From: Blepharisma japonicum
Lineage: Eukaryota > Ciliophora > Heterotrichea > Heterotrichida > Blepharismidae
Length of the DNA: 64,000 nt
Direction: 5' to 3'
Assembly (NCBI GenBank): GCA_949751835.1
Contig: CATKHK010000029.1
Location: 372,001-436,000 of the forward strand
Part shown: positions 26,334-29,101 of the stretch, in pieces
How the letters are laid out: each line of letters starts with the position of its first letter
Position numbering within the stretch: position 1 is the stretch's first letter
Translations under genes and position numbers: made by a program
The notes under the pieces: model-generated
The model's input: only the letters and a program-made list of their open reading frames with translations
What the model was told of the DNA's origin: nothing
The model's database searches: none

Positions 26334-27683
26334 TTATTTAAGACCAAAAGGATTAGTTGCAACCTGAGGAGGAGTGTACTTGCTTCTATTTTCAGATAGG
26401 GCTGGAGCCTTAGTTGGAGCTTTCACAGGTACTGGTGGAGTCTTTTTTATAGGGTTTAGCCCCTTCATTGGAATGTGTGCAGGTATTTTTGGAGGTGGAG
26501 CTTTGATTGGCATTGGAATTTCATTTTTTGGCTCAGGCTCATCAATTGTGTTTTCTGGCATTTTAACCTCATCGATGTCTACAAACTTCAGCTTTGAATC
26601 TATACCAAAATCAGTTTTTTCATTAATATTACCAGTGCTCTCTCTTGAAAATGGCTTGGGTTCAAAGCTTAATTCTTCAGAGATCTCAGATATAATTTCT
26701 TTTTTGATTGGTTCATCAAACGATTCTTTCTTTTTCTTTAAAGAAGTATCTGACTGTTTCCTTTCACTTTTTTCAGACTCAATAATAGATGTTGTCTCTT
26801 CTCTGTATCCTAGATTTGCATTGACTGCATTTTTATCATCAAGATAAGCTTTACTTATATCATAAGCATTGGTGACTTCTATGGAATCAACAACAGGAAT
26901 TTCATTGATGTTTATCTTAGGTCCTTTTGCTTTGTCTAATTTAATCCATAGGTCTCTATGAGATTCAATGACTTTGCTTTGAAATTCATGCTGAGTAGTT
27001 TGGATTCTTGCGATCTCAGCAATGATTGTGTCTAATTTTTTACTTGTTTCATTGTCAATCTTGCTGCTCCCTTTATCAAGCTTTACATCAGCTGTACTTT
27101 CTTTGATGGAATTTTTCAAGTTTGTAATAGTTTGCTGAAGCTCTTTATTTTTTGCTTCGAGTACTTGCATAACTTCAGCTTGCACGTTCTCTTCAGTTAT
27201 TTTGTAGCTAAGGTTTATTCTGTTTCTTTCAGGCGATACTAATCTGAAGCATAAATAGAAAAGTGCAATATAAAATACAATGATATTAACAGGTGTCATA
27301 TTTCGAATCGCTTTATAACCAGCAGCAATATAATGTTCTGTAATCAATGCAAAGTTAACGAAAACAAGATAGAATGGGCCACTCTCATCTGGAAGATTAA
27401 TTTTTTGATTTTTTTGTGGTTCTTGGGCTTTTTCAATGTGCTCATGATATTCATTGTGCTCATGTGTATGAGAATGGGCATGATGATGTTGGCTATGATC
27501 ATGTGAGTGATGCTTCATTTCTTCTTCATGATTATGATGCTCATGTGGATCTTGAGCGATTTTTGTAGATTCACTTGTTGTGTCAATTTCTGCGGGGTCA
27601 TCAGCCTCTACATCGTCATGGTGATGAGATTCTATGGAGAAGACTAGCGAAATTGCAAGGATGATGACTAGGAATTTCTTCAT
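26334..27683 (-). CDS. type I membrane protein with His-rich luminal region and Pro-rich tail
   Basis: 449 aa. A cleavable signal peptide (MKKFLVIILAISLVFSIES) is followed by a strongly His-rich region (about 20-85; HHHAHSHTHEH, HHSHDHSQHHH). A membrane segment (VNIIVFYIALFYLCFRLV) comes next, then a coiled coil (about 165-250). A charged region and a Pro-rich tail (APPPKIPAHIPMKG) close with an NPF motif (ATNPFGLK). The His-rich part probably binds Zn2+ or another metal in the lumen or outside. The NPF motif could bind EH-domain endocytic proteins. It is not a ZIP transporter, as there are too few membrane segments. Function is inferred only from composition. Confidence 0.65.
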   Translation of the reverse strand: MKKFLVIILAISLVFSIESHHHDDVEADDPAEIDTTSESTKIAQDPHEHHNHEEEMKHHSHDHSQHHHAHSHTHEHNEYHEHIEKAQEPQKNQKINLPDESGPFYLVFVNFALITEHYIAAGYKAIRNMTPVNIIVFYIALFYLCFRLVSPERNRINLSYKITEENVQAEVMQVLEAKNKELQQTITNLKNSIKESTADVKLDKGSSKIDNETSKKLDTIIAEIARIQTTQHEFQSKVIESHRDLWIKLDKAKGPKININEIPVVDSIEVTNAYDISKAYLDDKNAVNANLGYREETTSIIESEKSERKQSDTSLKKKKESFDEPIKKEIISEISEELSFEPKPFSRESTGNINEKTDFGIDSKLKFVDIDEVKMPENTIDEPEPKNEIPMPIKAPPPKIPAHIPMKGLNPIKKTPPVPVKAPTKAPALSENRSKYTPPQVATNPFGLK

Positions 27684-27793: not shown

Positions 27794-29101
27794 TTACATG
27801 AAATCCTCATCCCAATCTTCTTCATCCCCGTTTTCCCCTAGCTGGGCTACGTCCAGTTGATATCTTAAAAACGCTCCAATTCCATTAAATCCTCTAGCAA
27901 ATTGGCTGCCTTCTTGGCTTTTATCAGTGACTAGTTCAAGTTCAGAACCGAACTTCATATAATTTTCCACAATCCACTCAGCTAATGGTCCTTGCTCTAC
28001 TATATCAACCTTCTCTCCTTTTTCATTAACTGTACTTATTTCTGCTTCTTTCCCTTGCTCACAATATACAATGTCTTCTCTTCCTGATTCTGGGTGTCTC
28101 AGCAAAGTCCTTACAACACTTAAATTTTCATAGAGAATGACTTTTTCGCATGATCCCATCAAAAGTGCCCTCATTGTATCTTCAACTCCATAGCAATACT
28201 TCTTAGTATCCTGGGCAATTTCTTCAAAAAATTGGCTGATTATAGCTTTTTCTCTTATAAATTTCACATTATTCAATGTATCTGCTGACAACTCAATTGC
28301 CTGCTGGAAGCCATTTTGTCCTCCATATGCGATGTCCACAACTTTTACCACTTTGGATTGAAGTCTTTCGTCAAACATGTCGCTCTGAGCTAACTCCTTT
28401 TTAAACTCAGCACTTCCAGCAAGGATTATCCCAACGACATTTATCTTGTCTCCTGTAATAAATTGCACAACTGCCTGCTCTGCAACTTTCCTCAAATAGT
28501 TGTGCCTTGATTCCATTCGAAGTCTTGAAAAACGAAGTGCAGACTGACCACCTCTTCTGTGCTTTTTTGGTAAGTCAACCGAAAATTGGTTAAGGATCAC
28601 TTTGGTGTTTCCTTGTAAGGTGCCAAATAGGGTACCGTTTCCATCTATAATGATAAATCCATATTTATCTTCCATAACCAAAAGGTCTTTTAGCGGCTGG
28701 GTGTGAAACACGTTGTTGCAAATGTAAATTTTCGTATTAATTGGCCTAAATGGCTCAATATCAATTGTGACTTTTTTCTCGATGACGTCTTTTTCGTTGA
28801 GGATTTCTCCACAGTATATCACAAGACCATTTTTAGGCATTCGGTTATTGTAAAGCTTCAATCTTTCTCGGATTGAAGTTAAAGCACTAAGGATTGCTTG
28901 ACGGACCACACGGGATTTTATTGAGGTTGCAGAGCCGCACTCCTCATTGATCATGCGGCCTGTAAGGGATAATTGTTCGGTAGGTGGAATGATGAGAGAG
29001 ATAAGGGAAGTTCCATGCCCTCGGCACTTGTCAAGATTTTGAATCAATCTTTTAATTTTTCACTGCTCGATGTTCTCGGCTACTCCTCGGGAATCATCCA
29101 T
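27794..29101 (-). CDS. ETF1: eukaryotic peptide chain release factor 1 (eRF1)
   Basis: 435 aa, full length. Domain 1 carries the decoding motifs GTSLISLII, the NIKS-equivalent SATSIKS (residues 57-63) and YICNNVF (126-132, YxCxxxF). GGQ is at 184-186 in KKHRRGGQSALRFSRLRMES. Domain 3 includes EQGPLAEWIVENYMKFG and the TDKSQEGSQF block, with an acidic C terminus that binds eRF3. The Asn of the usual NIKS is Ser here. Codon 14, the conserved Trp in EQWKIK, is TGA (29060-29062). The start ATG at 29099-29101 is the only plausible start upstream of that codon. In a code where UGA is Trp, this factor should recognise UAA and UAG only. This is inferred. Confidence 0.97.

Follow-up and report, generated by a model that had tools for sequence, protein, structure and literature searches.

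The genome of Blepharisma japonicum holds three genes for the class-1 release factor eRF1, two of which, eRF1-B and eRF1-C, carry SIKS where the third, eRF1-A, carries NIKS. eRF1-B lies in the window, the 64,000-nucleotide stretch of contig CATKHK010000029.1 (positions 372,001 to 436,000) that we analyzed. From the sequences, it is probable that eRF1-B and eRF1-C form a diverged SIKS pair beside a main, NIKS-bearing eRF1-A and that eRF1-B works as a class-1 release factor for UAA and UAG.

Three eRF1 genes in one genome

The first-pass annotation had described positions 27794..29101 (minus strand) as an eRF1 with SATSIKS in place of TASNIKS, and this description was correct. The coding sequence runs from ATG to TAA as a single open frame of 435 amino acids when TGA is read as Trp. 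Its sole in-frame TGA is codon 14 (Trp14; 29060..29062, minus strand), whose aligned counterpart is Trp in human eRF1 and a TGG codon in eRF1-A. All three eRF1 Pfam domains scored above their cut-offs (PF03463, 80.5 bits; PF03464, 148.4 bits; PF03465, 99.7 bits), as did the NCBIfam aRF1_eRF1 model (391.5 bits; cut-off, 234.7). Human eRF1 was the top PDB match (E value, 8.9e-169), with 58.8% identity across 430 aligned positions, and the fold of eRF1-B is therefore plain. Pelota/Dom34 was rejected as an identity, since the NCBIfam pelota model gave only 32.7 bits (cut-off, 177.65) and GGQ is present. The adjoining gene, at 26334-27683 (minus strand) of the window, encodes a 449-amino-acid histidine-rich protein without a Pfam match.

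We located the functional motifs of eRF1-B, all on the minus strand, by alignment to human eRF1. GTS (residues 30-32; 29006..29014), YxCxxxF in the form YICNNVF (28706..28726; human YLCDNKF, 125-131), and the GGQ motif of peptidyl-tRNA hydrolysis (28544..28552) are all kept, as had been claimed. Glu54 (28940..28942) corresponds to human Glu55, and Ile62, Lys63, Ser64, Arg65, Arg68, Tyr125, Cys127, and Phe131 (human numbering, used from here on) are likewise retained. SATSIKS (28913..28933) corresponds to human TASNIKS (58-64), with Ser60 of eRF1-B (codon TCA, 28922-28924) replacing human Asn61, so that the NIKS tetrapeptide is absent while its Ile, Lys, and Ser remain. Ciliates are a known exception to the NIKS of eRF1 (PMC2613156), and SIKS hence does not remove eRF1-B from the eRF1 family. 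Human Ser70 is replaced by Ala (Ala69 of eRF1-B; 28895..28897), a substitution common to eRF1-A and listed for the eRF1s of Blepharisma and Euplotes in Table 2 of PMC4695839. Within YxCxxxF, Ile126 is common to all three copies, and D128N and K130V occur among them in eRF1-B only.

Searches of the whole genome (45.2 Mb; 224 contigs) with two eRF1 domains returned the same four loci, namely, the window gene (eRF1-B), L002 (eRF1-A), L004 (eRF1-C), and a pelota gene (L001; NCBIfam pelota model, 258.2 bits). Table 2 of PMC4695839 gives KSSNIKS, YICDNKF, and Ala70 for the eRF1s of B. americanum, B. japonicum, and B. musculus. eRF1-A carries this entire signature, whereas eRF1-B resembles the published proteins in Ile126 and Ala70 and differs from them in SATSIKS and YICNNVF. 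eRF1-C, an intact frame of 432 amino acids, shares SIKS with eRF1-B and has Ser at position 70. The codon at the position of Asn61 is AAC in eRF1-A and TCA in both eRF1-B and eRF1-C, i.e., three base differences, found in two genes. Identity is 67.2% between eRF1-A and eRF1-B, 61.6% between eRF1-A and eRF1-C, and 73.1% between eRF1-B and eRF1-C; identities to human eRF1 are 62.2%, 58.8%, and 54.6% for eRF1-A, eRF1-B, and eRF1-C, respectively. eRF1-B and eRF1-C share 26 residues at sites where eRF1-A matches human eRF1, with 8 and 4 sites for the other groupings. A tree of the three copies and human eRF1 placed eRF1-B with eRF1-C, apart from the other two sequences, with a bootstrap value of 100 (200 replicates). 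By these site patterns and this tree, we concluded that eRF1-B and eRF1-C are a diverged sister pair sharing the Asn61-to-Ser change. No eRF1 relatives were confirmed in viral_contigs and genome_contigs with short patterns taken from these ciliate copies, a negative that is uninformative because even human eRF1 departs from several of the patterns.

Three features favor eRF1-A as the main factor: the match to the published eRF1 of the genus, the retained NIKS, and the lack of TGA codons. On these features, we provisionally take it as such. We also compared codon usage with that of 38 other window ORFs, using as a reference two EF1A genes, two ribosomal protein L3 genes, and one tubulin gene (EF1A_L083 itself scores low). 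By log-likelihood score, eRF1-A ranked above all 38 ORFs, eRF1-B above 32, and eRF1-C above 9. However, the GC3 of eRF1-A is unusually high (0.49; window maximum, 0.42), and this signal was gone under other measures, so we rejected codon usage as proof of eRF1-A as the main eRF1. By CAI, 21, 22, and 30 of the 38 ORFs exceeded eRF1-A, eRF1-B, and eRF1-C, respectively; after GC3 correction the counts were 8, 18, and 26, and with a stricter reference set they were 16, 16, and 21. By effective number of codons, eRF1-A and eRF1-B are less biased than most ORFs.

UGA codons and the eRF3 copies

The statement of the first-pass annotation that UGA is Trp in this heterotrich-type ciliate held up. Each of the three TGA codons carried by the eRF1 copies sits in a Trp column, and codon 14 is TGA in both eRF1-B and eRF1-C and TGG in eRF1-A. 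In the 38 other window ORFs (at least 180 residues each, a few maybe spurious; the eRF1 ORF is left out of the count), TGA accounts for 43 of 127 Trp codons. A three-unit CCCTAACA pattern had 168 exact matches in the genome and its reversed control had none; the first 100 of the 168 lie near contig position 1 or at the end of C4, C5, or C6. For Blepharisma stoltei, CCCTAACA has been described as the repeat unit of the telomeres (PMC9942806). The telomeres, the code, and the eRF1-A signature all mark this macronuclear genome as that of a Blepharisma.

The eEF1A/eRF3-type end domain had 10 matches in the genome, of which we read 7, the other 3 being weak. These seven are two EF1A genes (L083 and L084), HBS1 (L086), and four eRF3-type genes, L085, L087, L088, and L101, located on C44, C120, C6, and C4 of G000, respectively. 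The best PDB match was eRF3a for L085, L088, and L101 and HBS1 for L086. L085 and L087, whose frames extend beyond the fetched stretch, are 84.2% identical. L101, which was read in part, is 58.5 and 59.8% identical to these two and groups with them (support, 86), while L088 has 47% identity to them. The two divergent genes, L088 and L101, both contain TGA codons. A 463-residue DDE-type transposase frame (L083:1911-3299, minus strand; PF13358, 61.4 bits) adjoins an eEF1A gene.

Among the duplicated release-factor genes, six of seven TGA codons (one in eRF1-B, two in eRF1-C, two in L088 past its likely start, and two in the read part of L101) stand on columns where conserved copies have Trp. The remaining one, in L088, is opposite Tyr within a variable region, and the L088 frame has one further TGA upstream of the likely start. 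Ten conserved genes (eRF1-A, pelota, two EF1A, two eRF3, HBS1, two L3, and one tubulin) have TGA at none of 42 Trp codons, compared with 5 of 12 in eRF1-B, eRF1-C, and L088 (Fisher P = 2.5e-4; groups picked after the counts were seen); in the part of L101 that was read, the proportion is 2 of 5. Two more tubulins, likewise without TGA, were left out of the 10-gene count. Conserved tubulin copies seem to avoid TGA: across 32 Tubulin_C matches, an internal TGA is present in none of the 16 best-scoring and in 11 of the 16 weaker ones, and two more of the weaker ones have only TAA or TAG.

This contrast in TGA usage, together with the presence of four eRF3 genes, two of them divergent, would suit a second release-factor set in which eRF1-B and eRF1-C act with L088 and/or L101 during a specific life stage or on specific mRNAs. 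We consider such a set unlikely. In their use of TGA for Trp, the divergent genes (eRF1-B, eRF1-C, and L088) do not differ from the window background (43 of 127; P = 0.75), so that this usage marks ordinary genes rather than a partnership, and L101 branches with L085 and L087, not with L088. We are similarly doubtful of a fuller version, in which a conserved set pairs eRF1-A with L085/L087, a divergent set pairs eRF1-B and eRF1-C with L088 or L101 for a different life stage or message class, and the recurrent change of Asn61 to Ser, found in second eRF1 copies of ciliates whose codes differ, marks specialization rather than reassignment.

Most likely, eRF1-B is an active, secondary release factor for UAA and UAG. 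Its GGQ would bring about peptide release, and Lys63 and Arg68 would read U+1; GTS, Glu55, and Tyr125/Cys127, also kept, are available for decoding. Ser61 would make a looser contact to the ribose of U+1, a contact that does not vary among stop codons; efficiency is perhaps lower as a result, but by itself this change should not single out UGA. Since D128N and K130V belong to eRF1-B alone, specificity could be altered unpredictably.

The SIKS motif and the genetic code

The first-pass annotation had proposed the changed motif as the candidate cause of UGA reassignment, and this proposal was not supported. It would require that eRF1-B lost recognition of UGA through N61S and that this loss brought about or permitted the change of UGA to Trp. 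Consistent with this, SIKS is also present in Euplotes eRF1a (TAESIKS), and in Euplotes, too, UGA is no longer a stop codon (PMC4695839, Table 2); eRF1-B could carry any share of termination. However, eRF1-A bears NIKS in the same genome, and comparison with the published eRF1s showed NIKS rather than SIKS in those of Blepharisma and NIKS in Euplotes eRF1b (PMC4695839, Table 2). Simulations show Asn61 in contact with the U+1 sugar without a part in discrimination (PMC5681627), and the eRF1 of Paramecium, which reads UGA only, has SIKD (PMC12440015); in PMC2613156 the motifs of the two Paramecium copies are printed as SIQD and SIKN, letters that differ from those in PMC12440015. Since U+1 is common to all stop codons and the UGA-only eRF1 of Paramecium has SIK-, N61S is not a mark of UGA loss. 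In agreement, Swart et al. 2016 (PMC4967479) found no one change in eRF1 that follows the genetic code. We conclude that the changed motif is unlikely to explain the code of Blepharisma, because a copy with the usual NIKS is present in the same genome; that N61S itself abolished UGA recognition is very improbable. The earlier note had set against its own proposal the case of a second, canonical eRF1 being the main factor. A NIKS-bearing second copy does exist, and codon usage is not decisive on its being the main one.

Ile126 and Ala70, both present in eRF1-A and eRF1-B, are better candidates than SIKS. L126I (L123I in yeast) increases readthrough 6.0-fold for UGA, 1.5-fold for UAA, and 1.4-fold for UAG (PMC4482090). 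This argument is weakened by the reported recognition of all three stop codons by B. japonicum eRF1 (cited in PMC4967479 and PMC6879139).

Another very improbable reading is that eRF1-B and eRF1-C are duplicates in decay that have lost most or all of their function. eRF1-C has evolved faster than eRF1-A (Tajima P = 3.3e-4) and eRF1-B (Tajima P = 0.013), and codon usage in the pair is ordinary, which would fit decay; eRF1-A was not significantly slower than eRF1-B (Tajima P = 0.10). Nevertheless, all three frames are intact, GGQ is kept in both members of the pair, and synonymous change strongly exceeds amino acid change (pS, 0.76 to 0.84; pN, 0.14 to 0.24), although dN/dS values are unusable because synonymous sites are saturated. 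The TGA at codon 14 of eRF1-B and eRF1-C, TGG in eRF1-A, could limit their own synthesis by aborting it where release factors still read UGA, but we set this aside as highly improbable, since TGA often encodes Trp in this genome (about one-third of the Trp codons in the window) and nothing special is needed to account for it.

Extra ciliate eRF1s with an Asn-to-Ser change are of a known kind, and eRF1-B, with Ser at position 61, its other motifs kept, and another eRF1 in the same genome, resembles them. Euplotes eRF1a and eRF1b (TAESIKS and TAVNIKS; PMC4695839) also comprise a SIKS type and a NIKS type, with Ile126, Ala70, and a reassigned UGA. In Euplotes, UGA is Cys rather than Trp, and Blepharisma has three genes; the likeness is drawn from published motifs. 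The second eRF1s of Tetrahymena (SIKN) and Paramecium (SIQD) likewise have Ser for Asn and keep YxCxxxF and GGQ (PMC2613156), although, unlike in Blepharisma, UGA is the only stop codon there (PMC6935857). The two SIKS eRF1s of Blepharisma appear to be new: the open-literature passages searched made no mention of a SIKS eRF1 or a second eRF1 in the genus. Four Blepharisma eRF3 genes, two of them diverged, were likewise not seen in the open literature searched. Because one NIKS copy and two SIKS copies occur here under one code, a genetic code should not be read off a single eRF1 motif. The natural three-copy set, with its matching spread of eRF3 genes, offers a test of the separate roles of Asn61, Ser70, and Leu126 and of whether ciliates keep specialized release factors.

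Candidate transfer RNAs for UGA

We identified six tRNA-Trp genes, identical across 73 bases, in which the anticodon is CCA and the anticodon stem has 4 bp, 27A being opposite 43C. Four of the six were fetched; they aligned without difference, and each was called tRNA-Trp(CCA) by ARAGORN (drawing inspected for two) and matched in Rfam. The CCA anticodon and the broken top stem pair (27A-43C here) are shared with the 4-bp tRNA-Trp of Blastocrithidia, Condylostoma, Blepharisma, and Loxodes. In Blastocrithidia and Condylostoma, decoding of UGA by a tRNA-Trp(CCA) with a 4-bp stem has been demonstrated (PMC13092985). That of Blepharisma is not new, having been reported already (PMC13092985, citing Swart et al. 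2024); the title of that cited work, as PMC13092985 lists it, shows that what the 4-bp tRNA does in ciliates is a matter of dispute.

A tRNA-Trp(UCA) was set aside as the UGA reader, none having been found, within limited coverage, by patterns, a 73-base query, or a tRNA family search. The first pattern matched 49 places, against 84 for its control, and ARAGORN found no tRNA at the 30 of these that were run. The second matched 15 places, of which 6 are the CCA gene and 9 gave no tRNA (4 by Rfam and 5 by ARAGORN). The 73-base DNA query returned the six CCA copies and nothing else, and of the 2483 candidates in the family search 63 were scored, a coverage that a distant UCA gene could escape. 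Among other candidates, L069-L072 proved to be tRNA-Gly(UCC), and no Trp tRNA was present at L073 or L074. L073 (G000:C152:15240-15350) is tRNA-like; ARAGORN read its loop as eight bases and its anticodon as four, and gave Asp or Gly. The only UCA tRNA detected in the genome searches is a tRNA-Sec at L094 (G000:C60:226544-226629, minus strand; 75.6 bits; cut-off, 47), with which ARAGORN agrees. Hence UGA, already Trp, may carry selenocysteine as a second meaning.
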